Below are positions 33,228 through 40,256 of a stretch of 54,345 nt of DNA, in pieces. A model generated the notes under the pieces. It saw nothing but the letters and a program-made list of their open reading frames with translations, was not told the DNA's origin and ran no database searches. Location: contig CACILF010000006.1 of NCBI GenBank assembly GCA_902587435.1, positions 1-54,345 on the forward strand, in the 5' to 3' direction. The DNA comes from an uncultured Pelagibacteraceae bacterium (lineage in GTDB: Bacteria; Pseudomonadota; Alphaproteobacteria; Pelagibacterales; Pelagibacteraceae). The translations under genes and the position numbers were made by a program. How positions within the stretch are numbered: the first letter of the stretch is position 1; each line of letters begins with the position of its first letter.

Positions 33228-33770
33228 ATGGATGGGTTTTTAAAAATTTTTGAAAATATTTCTAGTTTTGATTTAATATATATTTTCTTTACGGTACTAT
33301 CTTTAATTAAATGTTCTAGAAAAGGTTTTGTTCTAAGTTTAATTGCGGCTTCAAAATGGTTATTGGCTTACATATTAACTCTAATAATTTTCCCTAGAGT
33401 TAAACCTTTTGTTGAAGGTATAATTGACAGTGAATATGTTTTGGACATCATTCTAGGTGTGGGAATTTTTGTTATTATAATTTTTTTAATTTTAATGATT
33501 AATAAAGGTATTGGTAAGGCCGTATCATACTCTGGTCTAGGGACATTAGACAAAATATTTGGATTCTTTTTTGGTTTTTTAAGATCTTATATAATTTGTG
33601 TATGTATCTTTTCAACTATAAGTATAATTTATAATCATGATAAGTGGCCTATGAATTTGGAAAAATCCTTTACCTTTCCATACGTTGAAAAAGGTAGTAA
33701 TTATTTAATAAAAGAATTTCCAAATGAAGAAAATTACAATGATGCAAAAGATAAAGTTCAAGAACTTTAA
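33228..33770 (+). CDS. cvpA: CvpA family membrane protein
   Basis: A 180-residue integral membrane protein of the CvpA (colicin V production) family. It has four predicted helices (about 12-25, 35-53, 70-90, 110-130), the early DLIYIFFTVLSLIKCSRKGFVL segment and the GLGTLDKIFGFFFGFLRSYI block typical of the family. CvpA is linked to envelope stress resistance in some Gammaproteobacteria; the exact activity is not settled. It overlaps the purF reading frame, the usual cvpA-purF order. Confidence 0.9.
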   Translation: MDGFLKIFENISSFDLIYIFFTVLSLIKCSRKGFVLSLIAASKWLLAYILTLIIFPRVKPFVEGIIDSEYVLDIILGVGIFVIIIFLILMINKGIGKAVSYSGLGTLDKIFGFFFGFLRSYIICVCIFSTISIIYNHDKWPMNLEKSFTFPYVEKGSNYLIKEFPNEENYNDAKDKVQEL

Positions 33771-35205
33771 TCCCAAAATAAAAGAAGAATGTGGAGTATT
33801 TGGTATAAGTAATAATAATGATGCGTCAGCTCTTGCAGCTTTAGGGTTACACGCACTTCAACATAGAGGACAAGAAGGATGTGGAATTGTTACTTTTGAT
33901 GGAGATCAATATCATTCGGAAAAAAGATTTGGTCTTGTTGGAGATAATTTTAATAAAGAAAAAGTATTAAAAAATTTAACAGGAAAATATGCCATTGGTC
34001 ATAATAGATATAGTACTACTGGAGGTACAACATTAAGAAACATTCAGCCGTTTTTTGCAGATACAAACGCAGGAGGAATAAGTATTTCTCACAACGGAAA
34101 CTTAACAAATGCAATAAAATTAAGATCAAAATTAGTTAAAGAAGGTGCTATTTTTTATACTACATCTGATACTGAAACTATTGTTCAGCTAATTGCTAAA
34201 TCAAAAAGAACTAAAACTATAGACAAGATTGTAGAAGCATTATTTCAAATACAAGGAGGTTATGCCTTGGTCATGCTAACTCAAAAAAAATTGATAGGAG
34301 TTAGAGACCCATTTGGAATAAGGCCACTAGTTATTGGAAAATTAAAAAATTCATATGTATTAGCATCTGAAACTTGTGCTTTGGATATAATAGGTGCGAA
34401 ATATTTAAGAGAAGTTGAAAATGGAGAAATAGTTTTGATTGAGGACGATAATATTGAAAGTATTAAACCATTTCCAAAACAAAAAGTTCGACCGTGTGTG
34501 TTTGAATATATTTATTTCTCTAGGCCAGATAGTATTTTAAATGGAAAAACTGCTTATGAATATAGGAAAAATTTAGGTATTGAACTAGCAAATGAAGATG
34601 ATGTTGAGGGGGATGTTGTTGTGCCTGTTCCAGATTCAGGAAATGCAGCAGCTTTGGGTTATAGTCAACAAAGCAGAAAAAATTTCGAATTAGGATTAAT
34701 TAGAAATCATTATGTTGGAAGAACTTTTATTGAGCCTTCACAAAAAATTAGAAGTCTTGGTGTTAAACTAAAATTAAACCCAAACAAAACATCAATAAAA
34801 GATAAAAAAATTATTTTAGTTGATGATTCACTGGTGAGAGGAACAACAAGTTATAAAATAGTAAAAATGTTATATGATGCGGGAGCAAAGGAAGTTCATG
34901 TAAGAATAGCAAGTCCTGAGATTAGATACCCAGATTTTTACGGAGTTGATACACCTACAAAAAAAGAACTTTTAGCAGCAAATAAAAATAATGATGAAAT
35001 ATGCAGGTATATTGGAGCAAAAAGTCTAAAGTATTTATCAATAGATGGTCTCTATAAAGCGATGGGATTTAAGAATAGAAATAAAAACTATCCTCAATTA
35101 ACAGATCATTATTTTACTGGAGACTATCCGGTTAAACCGATAGATAATTTAGGTGATGATAAAATTACTCAACTTTCTTTATTAAGTACTGGGTCAAATA
35201 ATTAG
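33724..35205 (+). CDS. purF: Amidophosphoribosyltransferase
   Basis: PurF makes 5-phosphoribosylamine, the first committed step of purine synthesis. The mature N-terminus is expected at the Cys of EECGVFG, the glutaminase nucleophile. HNRYSTTGGTT and the PRPP loop KKIILVDDSLVRGTTS are clear. Starts are possible at 33724, 33739 and 33742, all upstream of the catalytic Cys and all overlapping cvpA, so the exact one is open. The first of the four Bacillus-type cluster ligands is kept (RPCVFEYIYFSRP), but the region with the others reads EIRYPDFYG and LTDHYFTGDYP with no cysteine, so no Bacillus-type [4Fe-4S] cluster is expected. Confidence 0.95.
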   Translation: MKKITMMQKIKFKNFNPKIKEECGVFGISNNNDASALAALGLHALQHRGQEGCGIVTFDGDQYHSEKRFGLVGDNFNKEKVLKNLTGKYAIGHNRYSTTGGTTLRNIQPFFADTNAGGISISHNGNLTNAIKLRSKLVKEGAIFYTTSDTETIVQLIAKSKRTKTIDKIVEALFQIQGGYALVMLTQKKLIGVRDPFGIRPLVIGKLKNSYVLASETCALDIIGAKYLREVENGEIVLIEDDNIESIKPFPKQKVRPCVFEYIYFSRPDSILNGKTAYEYRKNLGIELANEDDVEGDVVVPVPDSGNAAALGYSQQSRKNFELGLIRNHYVGRTFIEPSQKIRSLGVKLKLNPNKTSIKDKKIILVDDSLVRGTTSYKIVKMLYDAGAKEVHVRIASPEIRYPDFYGVDTPTKKELLAANKNNDEICRYIGAKSLKYLSIDGLYKAMGFKNRNKNYPQLTDHYFTGDYPVKPIDNLGDDKITQLSLLSTGSNN

Positions 35206-35207
35206 TT

Positions 35208-35762
35208 ATGAATAAAGTAAAATTTACAGAAATGAAACATGGAACAAAAGAGGACTATTTGCTTTTAGATAAACATGAAAAAAAATACATAGAAGAAACT
35301 GCTGATAGAATTCTTAAATTTATGTCAGGTTTAACAGAAACATTAGAGGGTTATCAAGTTTCAAGATTGGAACATTCACTTCAAAGTGCAACGAAGGCTT
35401 TAAAAGCTGGAGAAGATGAAGAAATTATAGTTGCGGCGCTTCTACATGATATAGGAGATGAATTGGCTCCTATGAATCACTCTGAATATGCTGCAGCAAT
35501 TTTAAAACCTTATGTTTCTGAAAAAACTCATTGGATAGTTGAAAAACATGGAGAATTTCAATTATATTATTATGCGCATCATTTAGGTGGTGACAGAAAT
35601 AAAAGAGAGAAATATAAAGACCACAAATATTATCAAGCAACAATAGATTTTTGTGAAAAGTATGATCAAGGATCTTTTGATCCTAATTACAAGTCCTTAC
35701 CATTGGAACATTTTGAACCAATGGTAAGAAGAATATTTTCAAGAAAACCTTACTCTAATTAA
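35208..35762 (+). CDS. HD-domain protein resembling mixed-valence diiron oxygenases (PhnZ-like)
   Basis: A 184-residue HD-superfamily protein. Six putative metal ligands can be placed: His56 (RLEHSLQ), His80 and Asp81 (LLHDIGD), His91, His114 and Asp153. This is the set expected for a diiron centre rather than a one-metal phosphohydrolase. The phrase LEHSLQ, the 24-residue spacing to HD, and a C-terminal PLEHFEPMV resemble PhnZ, the oxygenase that cleaves hydroxymethyl-type phosphonates. The PhnZ substrate residues just before LEHSLQ appear different here, so another small substrate is likely. It starts two bases after purF and is followed by a transporter 24 bases later. A nucleotide phosphohydrolase remains possible. 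Confidence 0.72.
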   Translation: MNKVKFTEMKHGTKEDYLLLDKHEKKYIEETADRILKFMSGLTETLEGYQVSRLEHSLQSATKALKAGEDEEIIVAALLHDIGDELAPMNHSEYAAAILKPYVSEKTHWIVEKHGEFQLYYYAHHLGGDRNKREKYKDHKYYQATIDFCEKYDQGSFDPNYKSLPLEHFEPMVRRIFSRKPYSN

Positions 35763-35786
35763 GTTTTTCATTTACAATTTTAAAAT

Positions 35787-36650
35787 ATGATAGAAAAATT
35801 ATCAAATCAGCAAAAAGGTTCACTTTTGGCATTTATTGGGGTTTTTCTAATCACTCCTGATTCTTTGCTTATCAGATTATCGAATATAGAAACATGGGGA
35901 ATGTTATTTTATAGAGGAGCAATACCTTTTGTGGTTGTTTTAATTGGTACATTAATTTTTTACAATAAAAATTTTTTAAAAAAACTATTTGGAATAGGTT
36001 TTCCAGGAATATTTTATATTTTTAGTTTTTCTGCATGCAATATTACTTTTATATTGTCTATCCAAAATACTAATGTTGCTAATACTTTGGTAATGATTGC
36101 TTTGGCTCCAATGCTTTCAGCTATATTAGGAGCTATATTTTTAAAGGAGGCCCCAGATAAAAAAACCTGGATTGCTATACTTGTTACCTTTGCTGCTTGT
36201 GTTTATATCTTTTATGATTCCCTTAATTTAGGTAACTTTTTAGGTGATTTCTTTGGTCTGGTTACTGCCTTTGGTCTTGCTTGTAATGCCACTTTAGCAA
36301 GATATGCTAAAGACAGAGATCTTGTTCCATCAGCTGTAATTGGTAAATTATGTGTTGCAATATTTGCCTTTTTCTTTGTAGAGAGCTTCACATTGGTTGG
36401 AAATGATATCATTTTTATACCTTTAATGTGTGTAATGTGTGTAGCTATCCCTTTTGTTTTAGTAACTATAGCCCCAAGATTTATAACTGGTGCTGAAGTT
36501 AATCTTTTTTTCCTTCTTGAAACTATACTGGGTCCAGTATGGGTTTGGATGGTAATTAAAGAACAACCGAGTTTGGAAACTATTTTAGGTGGCTCACTTA
36601 TCATATTAACAATTGCAATTCATTCATTCCTAGCCTTAAAAAAAACATAA
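35787..36650 (+). CDS. EamA/DMT-superfamily transporter
   Basis: A 287-residue membrane protein with about ten hydrophobic helices in two EamA repeats (about 10-140 and 150-285). Typical phrases are FYRGAIPF, NTNVANTLVMIALAPMLSAILGAIFLKE and LLETILGPVWVW with a following GG. Such proteins move amino acids, nucleosides or other small metabolites. The substrate is unknown. It lies downstream of the HD oxygenase-like gene in the same direction, so a joint role in handling one small compound is plausible. Confidence 0.88.
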   Translation: MIEKLSNQQKGSLLAFIGVFLITPDSLLIRLSNIETWGMLFYRGAIPFVVVLIGTLIFYNKNFLKKLFGIGFPGIFYIFSFSACNITFILSIQNTNVANTLVMIALAPMLSAILGAIFLKEAPDKKTWIAILVTFAACVYIFYDSLNLGNFLGDFFGLVTAFGLACNATLARYAKDRDLVPSAVIGKLCVAIFAFFFVESFTLVGNDIIFIPLMCVMCVAIPFVLVTIAPRFITGAEVNLFFLLETILGPVWVWMVIKEQPSLETILGGSLIILTIAIHSFLALKKT

Positions 36651-36704
36651 ATCATAACTAATTACTTGCAAAATTTTAACTAATTAATAAGCAGGCAAAT
36701 ATAT

Positions 36705-38006
36705 ATGCAAAAAGAAGTAACCAAATCATGGGCTTTATTTATTGGAATTGGAACAATCATGATTGCTCATGGTCTCCAAATGCAGTTAATGGGTATTAGA
36801 TCTGTTGTTGAAGACTTTAGTGTAATTACAACTGGTATATTTATGTCTGGTTATTTTATGGGATATTTTTTAGGATCAAACACTACTCCAAAGTTAGTAC
36901 AAAAAGTTGGGCATATTAGAGTATTTGCAGCTTTTGCATCTTTAGCTTCTTTAAGTGCGTTGTTAGCAGCGGTTTATGTTAATCCTGCAATGTGGACCTT
37001 AAGTAGATTTATAACAGGAATTAGCTTGGTTAGTTGCTACATAGTAACTGAAAGCTGGTTAAATGACAGAGCTACAAATAAAAATAGAGGACAATTACTA
37101 TCAGCTTATATGATAATTCTTTATAGTGGATTAGGAATAGGTATGCTTTTACTTAATGTAAGCGATCCTACAAACTACGAACCTTTTATTTTAGTTTCAG
37201 TACTATTATCTTTAGCTTTAGTTCCAATTCTTTTAACAAAAAGATCTGCTCCTAAATTTAAAAAAATAGGAACGATAAGCGTAAAAGAATTATATACAAT
37301 TTCTCCATTAGGAACTGTAAGTTCTTTTTGCACAGGCTTAATACATTCAGCTTTTTTTTCTTTAATGGCTGTATATGCTACAAAGGCTAATTTTACATTA
37401 TTTGAAACTTCAATTTTACTTTTTATAGCAACAATGTCTGGAGTTGTGTTTCAAGGCCCCATTGGTTATTTTTCAGACAAGCTTGATAGAAGAAAAGTAA
37501 TAGTTGCTGTTACATTATTAAGTGCTTTTTTTTCTTTCCTTTCAATTATTTTTGGAAGTCAAAGTCTTGAAAATATGTATTTATCAACTGAATTATCAAC
37601 TAGTAAAATTTTATTTTTTATAGCAGTTGGACTTTATGCAGGTTTATGTCTCCCATTATTTTCACTAAATCTTGCACATACAAATGATTTTGTACCTAAA
37701 GAAAAATTTGTGGCTGCAGGTGGTGGATTGCAATTTATATTTGGAATTGGTGCAATAAGTGGACCTATTATTTGTTCACTGTTTATGAGTTGGTTTGATA
37801 TAAATGGTTTGTTTGTATTTTTAATAATCGCACATATTATAATTGGAATATTTGGTATTTATAGAATGAAAGTAAGAGAAGTAGCAGAAAACCCTGACTC
37901 TACATATACTTCTATCCCAGCAACAATTACTCCAGCTGGATTAGAATTAGATCCTGATACTCCAGAAACATTAGATAATAATCAAGCAGAACAAACAAAA
38001 GTGTGA
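36705..38006 (+). CDS. Major facilitator superfamily transporter
   Basis: A 433-residue MFS protein with about twelve helices and a central loop near residues 175-200. The motif DKLDRRKVI after helix eight, the N-terminal GTIMIAHGLQMQLMGIR and SRFITGISLVSCYIVTESWLNDRA resemble the YcaD-type group of small-solute MFS transporters. The Pro/Thr-rich C-terminal tail (about 400-433) is soluble. No substrate can be assigned. The GTG start of the small gene downstream overlaps its stop codon. Confidence 0.88.
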   Translation: MQKEVTKSWALFIGIGTIMIAHGLQMQLMGIRSVVEDFSVITTGIFMSGYFMGYFLGSNTTPKLVQKVGHIRVFAAFASLASLSALLAAVYVNPAMWTLSRFITGISLVSCYIVTESWLNDRATNKNRGQLLSAYMIILYSGLGIGMLLLNVSDPTNYEPFILVSVLLSLALVPILLTKRSAPKFKKIGTISVKELYTISPLGTVSSFCTGLIHSAFFSLMAVYATKANFTLFETSILLFIATMSGVVFQGPIGYFSDKLDRRKVIVAVTLLSAFFSFLSIIFGSQSLENMYLSTELSTSKILFFIAVGLYAGLCLPLFSLNLAHTNDFVPKEKFVAAGGGLQFIFGIGAISGPIICSLFMSWFDINGLFVFLIIAHIIIGIFGIYRMKVREVAENPDSTYTSIPATITPAGLELDPDTPETLDNNQAEQTKV

Positions 38007-38230: not shown

Positions 38231-39346
38231 TTATTGTTTAGGAAAATAATCTTCTAATTTGCCTTCTCTATAAACATCTGCTGTACAACAATGAAGTCCG
38301 CCTCCAAAAGCATACGCATCTCTCATATCTACCGGTACTACTTCCATTCCAAGTTTATCTAGCTGCTCAGCTTGATAGACTTCACTTTTTTCTACACATA
38401 CTGTTTTTGGATCTAAAACTAAAACATTCATAGAAAGCCAAACTGATGAATAGCATAATGGAGGTGGAGAATTATGTGCTGGTTGAGCTGAATCAACTAT
38501 TTCCCAATCATTATCCTCAAAAAGTTTTCTTTGTTGTTTTGGTAATCTTCTTTGTGGATTGTTAATAATTAATCCTGGTTTAATAGGTGTAAAAGTTGCA
38601 TCAATATGTATTGGATAAGGATCTCCAGGAAAATTTACTCCATGAACTCTGTGATCTTTATAATGTCTTTTTAGCCATTCTATTCCTTTTAAATTTGTTG
38701 TAAAACCATGCTGAATAATTAAATCTTTACCAAATCTAAGTATATCAGCTGCATCAAAAAGAGGCTCTTCTTCTGTTGTTACAAAAAATTTTTTTTCAGT
38801 CCATTCAAGCCTTTTCTGATCTCCTATTTTATCTGATAAATAATCCTTTCTATAATCAGAATCAGTTAATCTTGGCTTTGGAGCAGACTCGTGTCTCATA
38901 TTTGGATCTAAATTATAGTATTTTTGAATAAGAGGTCTGTAATTTAAATACTCAAACCATCTACATCTATAACTCATTGTTGCTTCTAACATTTCGTTTC
39001 CTACAGTAAGAATCACATCTCTAGCTGGCATACATCCAAACATACTTTCTGCTTTCCAATCTGGAGTTGATATTTTTTGATTAAAATTTAATGGTTGAGG
39101 TCTATCTACTTTAATTCCTCTTTTTTTTAACATGTCAGCAAAATTATCCAAAAGTTCATTTGCTTTATCAACTGTATCTTTTGTTCTAGGACCATATTGT
39201 CCTTTCATATCAGAATCTTCTGGTACCTTTGCATCCAAAGCTGGCTCTGGCGCAGGAATACAGCAACCATCAGCCTTTCCAACGATCACATGTTTTAAAG
39301 GATCCCACTCATTCCAGCTATTAACAATTATTTTTTCTGAACTCAT
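38231..39346 (-). CDS. Glycine amidinotransferase-family enzyme
   Basis: A 371-residue amidinotransferase closely resembling vertebrate AGAT, which moves the amidino group of arginine to glycine, giving guanidinoacetate and ornithine. The catalytic triad is intact: Asp198 (FDAADILRFGKD), His247 (PIHIDATF) and Cys353 (GGGLHCCTADV). NSWNEWDPLKHVIVG at the start, GIEWLKRHYKDHRVH and WLSMNVLVLD are also shared. There is no mitochondrial-type targeting sequence. The acceptor could be glycine, another amine or an inosamine phosphate; the sequence does not settle this. It lies four bases downstream of an EamA transporter on the same strand, so the two probably form an operon. Its stop abuts that of the small gene on the other strand. 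Confidence 0.9.
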   Translation of the reverse strand: MSSEKIIVNSWNEWDPLKHVIVGKADGCCIPAPEPALDAKVPEDSDMKGQYGPRTKDTVDKANELLDNFADMLKKRGIKVDRPQPLNFNQKISTPDWKAESMFGCMPARDVILTVGNEMLEATMSYRCRWFEYLNYRPLIQKYYNLDPNMRHESAPKPRLTDSDYRKDYLSDKIGDQKRLEWTEKKFFVTTEEEPLFDAADILRFGKDLIIQHGFTTNLKGIEWLKRHYKDHRVHGVNFPGDPYPIHIDATFTPIKPGLIINNPQRRLPKQQRKLFEDNDWEIVDSAQPAHNSPPPLCYSSVWLSMNVLVLDPKTVCVEKSEVYQAEQLDKLGMEVVPVDMRDAYAFGGGLHCCTADVYREGKLEDYFPKQ

Positions 39347-39350
39347 TAAA

Positions 39351-40256
39351 TTAATTTAATGCAATAAATCTTCTATTACTTTTTATTATTAAGCTGTAAT
39401 AAAATATAGCTAAAAATATTAAAAAACCACCAACAATAGTATTTGTTTGTGGCACTTCATTAATTCCAAGCCATGGTAGCCAAACCCAAAATATTCCACC
39501 TATTACCTCTGTTAAAGAAAGCAAAGTAAGTTCCGCTGCGGGAATATTTTTCGATGCAATTGCGTATAATATCATACCTAAACAAACAATTGTTCCATGT
39601 ACTGCAAATAAAGCTTGATTTTTGCTAGATGAAAAAATGCTTAAATCTTTATTAATAATTACAATCAGAGATACTAAAAGGCAAATTAAGCCTGCCAAAG
39701 CAACCGTGGTAAATTTTGGTGTTTCTTTTCTCCATCTCAAACTTACTGAAAAAACTGAAAACCCTAGTGCAGATACTATTCCTAAAACAAACCCCATAAA
39801 TGTATTCTTTTCATGATTTCCTATTGCCATTATTATAATTCCAATAGTAGCGATCCCAATAGCTGCCCAGACATTTATAGATATTGTTTCTTTTAAAAAT
39901 AAAAAACCTAATAAGGCTGTAATAAATGGCATTGCAGCAAGACACAGAAGGGTTATTGCTGCTGATGTATTTGTTATTGACCAAATAAAAGTAATCATTG
40001 CTGCTGCTAATCCACAACTACCTATAATACCAGAAATACCTATTTTTTTATAATTACTGATAAATTCTATTCCTTCTTCCATATACAAGTAAAGATTAAG
40101 CAAAATAAATATTACCATTCCTCTCGTAAATAAATATTGCCAAGGAACTGTGTTAGCTTCATCAATATTACGAACGACATAAGGACCAAATGACCAAAAA
40201 ATACCAGCCATTAGAACTACAGGTATAGCAAGTTGAGGATTCTTTAATTTTTCCAT
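39351..40256 (-). CDS. EamA/DMT-superfamily transporter next to the amidinotransferase
   Basis: A 301-residue membrane protein with ten predicted helices in two repeats. Characteristic segments are MAGIFWSFGPYVVRNI, ITNTSAAITLLCLAAMPFITALLGFLFLKE, and ELTLLSLTEVIGGIFWVWLPWLGINE near the end. It differs enough from the other EamA protein in the window (35787-36650) not to be a recent duplicate. Because the amidinotransferase start lies four bases after its stop, it is a candidate exporter or importer of an amidino compound, arginine or the acceptor. Confidence 0.88.
   Translation of the reverse strand: MEKLKNPQLAIPVVLMAGIFWSFGPYVVRNIDEANTVPWQYLFTRGMVIFILLNLYLYMEEGIEFISNYKKIGISGIIGSCGLAAAMITFIWSITNTSAAITLLCLAAMPFITALLGFLFLKETISINVWAAIGIATIGIIIMAIGNHEKNTFMGFVLGIVSALGFSVFSVSLRWRKETPKFTTVALAGLICLLVSLIVIINKDLSIFSSSKNQALFAVHGTIVCLGMILYAIASKNIPAAELTLLSLTEVIGGIFWVWLPWLGINEVPQTNTIVGGFLIFLAIFYYSLIIKSNRRFIALN

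Follow-up and report, generated by a model that had tools for sequence, protein, structure and literature searches.

A 2020 review (PMC8177086) names three HD-domain oxygenases, MIOX, PhnZ and TmpB, and gives for them a shared H...HD...H...H...D ligand pattern. It also describes a YxxE loop for PhnZ and TmpB and presents MIOX as a diiron HD enzyme with six ligands that uses oxygen to cut a carbon-carbon (C-C) bond and, unlike PhnZ and TmpB, has no tandem hydroxylase (PMC8177086). We analyzed a stretch of 54,345 nucleotides from an uncultured Pelagibacteraceae bacterium of the class Alphaproteobacteria (assembly GCA_902587435.1, contig CACILF010000006.1, positions 1 to 54,345), which we call the window. 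Its own genome (G000) is an assembly of 0.96 Mb in 45 contigs that is 71% complete. The gene at 35208..35762 on the plus strand encodes an HD-domain protein of 184 amino acids (aa). Its open reading frame (ORF), its Pfam HD match, and its profile and fold comparisons point to an uncharacterized branch of PhnZ/TmpB-type diiron oxygenases, and in relatives its gene lies beside that of a TmpA-like 2-oxoglutarate (2OG) hydroxylase.

The protein scored 33.7 bits against the Pfam HD model (PF01966; cut-off 22), which was the sole family reported in a Pfam scan at E <= 0.001, a scan that gave no MIOX match. It fell below all NCBIfam cut-offs, with 41.9 bits against 214.6 for Phn-HD (TIGR03276), 39.3 against 300 for TmpB (NF049941) and 28.7 against 300 for PhnZ1. 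The LEHSLQ motif is present, and H56 is separated from H80/D81 by 24 residues, the same distance that separates H34 from H58/D59 in PhnZ. We aligned 49 relatives, family members selected to be less than 80% identical to one another. The six ligands were invariant in 49/49: H56 of LEHSLQ (codon at 35373..35375, plus strand like all codons given here), the H80-D81 dyad (35445..35450), H91 (35478..35480), H114 (35547..35549) and D153 (35664..35666). Beyond the ligands, W109, F117, Q118, F148 and F157 were conserved in 49/49 and R53, D84, N90, R133 and C149 in 47-48/49.

We take H62 and K108 of PhnZ to be substrate-contact residues; the numbering fits the PhnZ chain. The position of H62 is occupied by D84 (codon 35457..35459), which hhalign pairs with the H of HDIGH, and that of K108 by Q118 (codon 35559..35561), which is aligned to the K of HVAAKRY. 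These replacements are a fixed trait across the family (D in 48/49, Q in 49/49) and not a quirk of one sequence. PhnZ E27 aligns with Y49 and PhnZ Y24 with L46, while the position of PhnZ R158 is ambiguous, being E150 in the HMMER alignment and C149 by hhalign. In an alignment of 14 Phn-HD proteins (one further locus, L183, was left out, having a stop codon), HDxGH, HVAAKR, LSxxS and LQGG were conserved or nearly so. The window protein does not have these motifs, and hhalign against the 14 proteins found no counterpart of the LSxxS/LQGG stretch in its profile. An earlier note on this DNA had pointed to six PhnZ-type metal ligands, the H-24-HD spacing, the LEHSLQ motif and differing substrate-contact residues, and each of these observations holds, the last as a property of the family.

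A profile built from the 49 relatives matched PhnZ (E 2.5e-13) and TmpB (1.3e-12) in the PDB, with the next chain at 0.25, and hhalign aligned the window's family to Phn-HD with an E of 1.2e-21 over 147 columns. An AlphaFold2 (AF2) model built from a 31-row alignment that included 7 divergent IMG/VR rows had a predicted local distance difference test (pLDDT) score of 92.2. When superposed with VIA-align, it gave Z scores of 17.7 for PhnZ (root-mean-square deviation 2.7, 152 residues), 17.6 for TmpB (2.8, 154 residues) and 11.8 for MIOX (3.2, 140 residues). Across the PhnZ/TmpB entries Z ranged from 17.0 to 17.7 over 152-156 residues, while the other folds among the 50 entries listed, including exopolyphosphatases, tRNA enzymes and HD hydrolases, reached at most 8.1. 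An earlier AF2 model made with SAR11 rows only had a pLDDT of 79 and left the ranking unchanged (PhnZ/TmpB, MIOX, rest). Foldseek agreed: ten chains of PhnZ or TmpB scored about 1e-6 to 1e-5, and MIOX came next at 0.16. The comparison with PhnZ, TmpB, MIOX and HD phosphohydrolases that the earlier note had proposed, made here by profile and predicted fold, placed PhnZ/TmpB nearest and MIOX second. Fold alone shows no function; it is the gap in Z to the hydrolases together with the ligand set that favors the oxygenase class. These sequence and model comparisons are best explained by an HD oxygenase of the PhnZ type and not by a phosphohydrolase, and the class named in the earlier note, a PhnZ-like diiron oxygenase, is likely right given the ligand set, the PDB profile matches, hhalign and the fold.

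We examined the neighbors of the HD gene in relatives using 93 same-strand genes lying within 200 bases of it in 107 non-Pelagibacter loci, and as a control 91 distant genes (the first 93 of 196 drawn, minus two very long ones). For each tally 25 Pfam families were listed, so that single matches may be unlisted, chiefly in the control. The families listed among the HD neighbors included TauD (5), IPNS-like 2OG oxygenase (4), Rieske (4), PhyH (3), glycine-betaine binding protein (2) and Mpo1-like (2). Among the families listed for the control, TauD appeared once, in a locus (L155) whose HD gene has such a cluster about 5 kb off. The neighbor genes came from a crude codon-model ORF caller that missed the HD gene in L115, L126, L136 and L149; HD genes were placed by tblastn. 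We also built TauD and PhyH models from genes first seen beside HD, so that their own rows count by construction, while the Pfam tally is independent of them.

The pairing was most regular in a sister family of the same order (f154), in which 21 of 24 genomes, all of those that bear the HD gene, had a TmpA-like gene immediately upstream of it on the same strand, with a match-to-match gap of 4-16 bases. The ORFs lay close together in the seven f154 loci that we read and abutted or overlapped in L338, L339 and L341. The remaining three genomes had neither a family-level HD nor a TmpA-like gene of the HD-linked kind: G277 and G278 had no HD match and only more distant TmpA/BBOX-type matches, and G291 had a weak HD match and no hydroxylase match. 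The window's genome carries a counterpart TmpA-like gene on another contig than HD (G000:C3:32102-33202, minus strand, 367 aa), whose best NCBIfam model is TmpA at 339.5 bits (cut-off 400). In a tree of 31 TmpA/BBOX-type proteins, with the over-long rows L175 and L263 cut back to the C-terminal 430 and 420 residues, 12 HD-adjacent proteins and 4 Pelagibacter copies encoded in trans formed one clade (support 99/98.6). Within it the Pelagibacter copies were sister to those of f154 (99/96), and the TmpAs linked to Phn-HD and the BBOX-type group fell apart from it. In relatives, the pairing of HD with a TmpA-like 2OG hydroxylase is well supported. The search of this genome for a hydroxylase that the earlier note had called for yields a candidate in trans whose counterparts adjoin HD elsewhere, and this TmpA-like hydroxylase is the likely partner of the window's HD protein.

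A PhyH gene in the same genome (L299) is another possible partner. PhyH genes adjoin HD in three loci of the window's clade (L115, L131 and L144), but at E <= 1e-20 an orthologue of the L299 gene was found in 10/61 sampled relatives of the window's genome, where the match in G245 was only weak, versus HD in 45/61. Because the PhyH orthologue is rare compared with HD, we prefer the TmpA-like gene.

With PhnZ and its hydroxylase PhnY, which belong to the oxidative pathway for 2-aminoethylphosphonate, the HD protein shares the HD fold, the LEHSLQ and HD motifs and the H-24-HD spacing, and some of its relatives pair with hydroxylases of the PhyH type, presumably the Pfam family of PhnY; it differs in its score to Phn-HD and in the replaced phosphonate-contact positions. 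With TmpB, the (R)-1-hydroxy-2-trimethylaminoethylphosphonate oxygenase, and its hydroxylase TmpA it has in common the HD fold, the six ligands, a GBBH/TmpA-type 2OG hydroxylase next to it in relatives and a betaine-type gene context. The differences are its score to TmpB, the placing of the partner hydroxylase in a separate clade, and the YxxE, HDIGH, HVAAKRY, LSxxS and LQGG motifs, which are changed or missing.

The genes around the TmpA-like/HD pair were read in the seven f154 loci, with gene models run for those of L338 and L339 only. Five loci (L338, L341, L342, L343 and L352) carry an aldehyde dehydrogenase, an acetoacetate-CoA ligase, the TmpA-like gene and HD on one strand and, divergently, BKACE, carnitine dehydrogenase-type and BBOX-type genes. 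L340 has the ligase, the TmpA-like gene, HD and, at its contig end, the start of a BKACE gene; L339 has the ligase, the TmpA-like gene, HD and a betaine/choline-type ABC transporter, with a carnitine dehydrogenase match about 18 kb away. The acetoacetate-CoA ligase (836 bits) and the choline ABC permease (429) cleared a cut-off. The scores for L-carnitine dehydrogenase (372 bits; cut-off 414), BBOX (311; 415) and the best aldehyde dehydrogenase model (450; 638) stayed under theirs. Similar genes occur elsewhere. A Pseudomonas plasmid (L151) has in order a TauD dioxygenase of the TmpA-like kind, HD, a choline ABC binding protein, choline dehydrogenase and aldehyde dehydrogenase. In L287 a TmpA-like gene and HD are accompanied by a gene whose product blastp relates to that binding protein. 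In L112, HD lies near BKACE, a carnitine dehydrogenase-type gene and a 4HBT thioesterase-type gene that matches the end of carnitine dehydrogenase fusions and that we take to encode a betainyl-CoA thioesterase. The window's own genome has BKACE and a BBOX-type gene on its contig C2. The genes that neighbor the TmpA-like/HD pair in relatives point towards trimethylammonium acids.

We give an even chance to the proposal that the two proteins are a hydroxylase and a mixed-valent diiron oxygenase that together oxidatively cleave a hydroxylated trimethylammonium acid, in what would be a C-C cleavage. The TmpA-like Fe(II)/2-oxoglutarate enzyme, if it is the partner, would hydroxylate a small trimethylammonium (betaine-type) acid. 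Its fold and ligands suggest that the HD protein would then bind the product by the new hydroxyl on one iron while activating O2 on the second, and that the bond next to this hydroxyl would be cut, leaving a shorter carboxylate. Because the phosphonate-contact residues are gone, this is probably a C-C bond, not a carbon-phosphorus (C-P) one. An alpha-hydroxy acid, for example, could be converted from R-CH(OH)-COO- to R-COO- and CO2. Since H62 and K108 are replaced by D and Q and the carboxylate is the likeliest leaving group in betaines, we propose that a 2-hydroxy betaine is oxidatively decarboxylated (R-CH(OH)-COOH + O2 -> R-COOH + CO2 + H2O), by which a longer betaine may be shortened towards gamma-butyrobetaine or glycine betaine. 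Such a reaction would parallel that of PhnZ and TmpB on phosphonates, for which the review places the hydroxyl on one iron and O2 on the other (PMC8177086). A chemical analogy, and no more, is offered by the Mpo1-like family (PF06127), an unrelated protein that by its Pfam name is a 2-hydroxy acid dioxygenase; Mpo1-like enzymes shorten their substrate by one carbon. We suggest more tentatively, as a possibility on the doubtful side, that this family forms a widespread third branch among the HD diiron oxygenases, one that cleaves C-C bonds. In an 'alpha-oxidation' coupled to the TmpA-like enzyme, a trimethylammonium acid would be hydroxylated beside its carboxylate and then oxidatively decarboxylated, so that betaines are shortened by one carbon, and in Pelagibacter the operon would have been split, leaving the oxygenase behind purF and the hydroxylase at another site.

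Several points weigh against this proposal. The count of adjacent 2OG hydroxylases in the window's HD clade (local support 0.92, midpoint root) speaks for it, with 10/22 non-SAR11 members versus 7/101 of the others (Fisher p 4e-5), but the clade was picked after we had viewed the midpoint-rooted tree, its rows are not independent by descent, and a single PhyH gene by a tandem HD pair makes up two of the seven outside cases. TauD-type genes near HD in L116 (divergent, 165 bases) and L238 (1171 bases) fell outside the HD-linked hydroxylase clade, as did the second TauD-type gene of L287, 5 kb from HD. In Pelagibacter itself the HD and TmpA-like genes are unlinked, and 37 genomes of the genus, most of them incomplete, showed no clear association (both genes in 18, HD only in 6, TmpA-like only in 8, neither in 5). 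Other branches of the HD family adjoin PhyH, IPNS-like, Rieske or aldolase genes or no oxygenase, and because the branches differ in this way one substrate class need not hold family-wide. The YxxE loop of PhnZ and TmpB is absent from the window protein, which has LEGY instead. Finally, no carnitine dehydrogenase match (E <= 1e-40) was found in 15/24 HD-positive genomes of the genus, most of them incomplete and the window's own among them, while G277 and G278 have the dehydrogenase but no HD. Because of these last two observations the pair is not simply a part of carnitine breakdown, for which it is not required.

The earlier note had suggested an organophosphonate as one possible substrate, which we reject as first choice given the replaced contact positions, the missing LSxxS/LQGG stretch and a separate Phn-HD gene in the same genome. 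Three genes stand in a row where contig C2 ends (L170:5113-6828): one thioesterase-like, one TauD-type (277 aa; its best model is taurine dioxygenase, with a score below the cut-off) and, directly after the latter, a Phn-HD gene cut by the contig end. The truncated Phn-HD protein of 132 aa scores 125 bits to Phn-HD (cut-off 214.6) and has the motifs YIGE, HDYGH, HVLAKRYL, LSNAS and LQGG. In another genome (G022), TmpB (E 9.7e-101 to 6npa) lies beside a TmpA above cut-off, and an HD gene of the window's family lies beside PhyH (L115). The two branches can thus coexist in one genome, and the phosphonate role can be taken by Phn-HD proteins. By its sequence, the window's HD protein is neither PhnZ nor TmpB and is most likely not a phosphonate enzyme.

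We therefore regard as unlikely that the protein is a divergent TmpB-like C-P cleaver, with the TmpA-like enzyme hydroxylating 2-trimethylaminoethylphosphonate or a related compound and HD releasing phosphate and glycine betaine. PhnZ and TmpB are the closest solved relatives, TmpA is the best model of the partner (under its cut-off here, over it at 422.5 bits for the partner in L287), and glycine betaine as product would also fit the betaine genes nearby. Set against this are the changes from PhnZ H62/K108 to D84/Q118 and from R158 to C149 or E150, the loss of LSxxS/LQGG, the true TmpA-TmpB pair that G022 has besides this branch, and the separate contig-cut gene in the window's genome.

The membership of the partner in the trimethyllysine dioxygenase superfamily (193.6 bits to that model) raises another route, in which 3-hydroxy-trimethyllysine would be cleaved between C2 and C3 straight to gamma-butyrobetaine. 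This one step would stand in for the aldolase and the aldehyde dehydrogenase that eukaryotes use on the way to carnitine. The BBOX-type, carnitine dehydrogenase-type and BKACE genes of the f154 clusters would suit it, but the partner scores higher with the TmpA and BBOX models than with the trimethyllysine model, an aldehyde dehydrogenase is retained in 5/7 of the f154 loci read, and the carnitine dehydrogenase match is lacking in the 15 HD-positive genomes mentioned above. We judge this route distinctly improbable.

The gene order at the locus bears on two further explanations. The HD gene starts 2 bases after purF (33724..35205), its upstream neighbor in a synteny kept in the genus, and is followed 24 bases later by a gene for an EamA/DMT-family transporter (35787..36650, 287 aa), all three on the plus strand; the ORF coordinates confirm the spacing that the earlier note had given. 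The transporter scored 60.4 bits to Pfam EamA (gathering cut-off 28.2). Among 90 Pelagibacter-type loci purF adjoined HD in 89, and the remaining locus begins 55 bases from the contig edge. This adjacency would suit an HD phosphohydrolase, a nucleotidase or similar, placed behind purF by chance; many HD proteins are hydrolases, and a RefSeq plasmid record calls one homologue a phosphohydrolase. Against it stand the six-ligand pattern, the Z score of 17.7 for PhnZ versus at most 8.1 for HD hydrolases and the other entries listed, and D84, which occupies the position of the lysine that HD hydrolases carry in HDxxK. Elsewhere 2OG hydroxylases adjoin HD in other groups, and purF was absent beside HD in the seven f154 loci read, so that a purine or nucleotide hydrolase linked to purF has weak grounds. 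A phosphohydrolase is in our view a poor prospect.

Downstream of HD, in the 84 of these 90 loci with a recognized downstream gene, the first such gene within 400 bases was gshA in 48 and EamA in 11, and a longer stretch preceded the next recognized gene in 25 (EamA in 21, gshA in 4). Since EamA is directly next in 11/84 loci, we see it as a neighbor at a variable site with no fixed partnership and reject it as the partner of HD; this tally does not support the single functional unit of HD and transporter that the earlier note had suggested. That the two are a real uptake-plus-oxidation unit is very improbable: the 24-base gap has a similar counterpart in 11 other loci, EamA lies farther downstream in many, and in the window's genome the TmpA-like gene shares 4 bases with a different EamA gene, but the product of that gene has no blastp match to the 35787-36650 protein (E <= 0.01), EamA stands beside the TmpA-like gene in only 2/8 other Pelagibacter loci read, and EamA proteins are often exporters.

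The interval 3' of HD in Pelagibacter loci (35763-38006 in the window) is a site of gene-content turnover between HD and EamA, where the variable genes are gshA-gshB, a homocysteine S-methyltransferase-type gene and a thioredoxin-domain-like protein. Four loci (L034, L065, L062 and L049) were read throughout, and there the intervening genes were an opposite-strand homocysteine S-methyltransferase-type gene and/or a putative DUF255 protein, which from its sequence we take for a thioredoxin-domain protein. The methyltransferase-type gene scores 61.6 bits to the NCBIfam betaine-homocysteine methyltransferase (cut-off 338). Being on the opposite strand beside HD (L034, L065) and absent from the window, it was not used as evidence. 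Farther along, at 38231-40256 on the minus strand, a 371-aa protein of the arginine deiminase superfamily, with weak database scores, is encoded 4 bases from a second EamA transporter, and this pair recurs in other Pelagibacter loci such as L039 and L057.

Relatives of the HD protein at E <= 1e-30 were present in 67/240 sampled genomes of the class, which marks it as a member of a conserved family and not a chance ORF; at E <= 0.001 there were matches in 82/240, 15 of them weak only. In sampled Pseudomonadota genomes the profile found it in 59/398 at family level and 61/398 at E <= 1e-10. Public plasmid records label homologues as HD domain-containing protein, phosphohydrolase or inositol oxygenase family protein, and in the titles and abstract openings returned by our searches of an open-access library we found no described enzyme of this branch. 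Eight IMG/VR contigs filed as viral (L191-L198) had HD-family matches, seven near full length with 39-49% identity and one a fragment, and a phage record (OQ658365.1) had a weak 28.5% match. Tandem HD duplicates occur in L019 and L025 (genomes G217 and G114; wider loci L127 and L132) near Rieske-type, PhyH and short-chain dehydrogenase-like genes. HD-family genes at L152:8646-9647 and L234:6860-7858 adjoin one blastp cluster with one member annotated as sterol desaturase family. Outside the class and outside the window's clade, genes assigned via a blastp cluster as Mpo1-like adjoin HD-family genes in L267 and L276.

A very common ocean bacterium (SAR11) thus carries an unstudied relative of the iron- and O2-dependent enzymes that cut C-P bonds, and marine surveys could mistake this branch for phosphonate use. 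With a candidate hydroxylase named as partner and only a few substrates to consider, its function is directly testable. The pair may open an unrecognized route for betaine-type dissolved nitrogen in SAR11.

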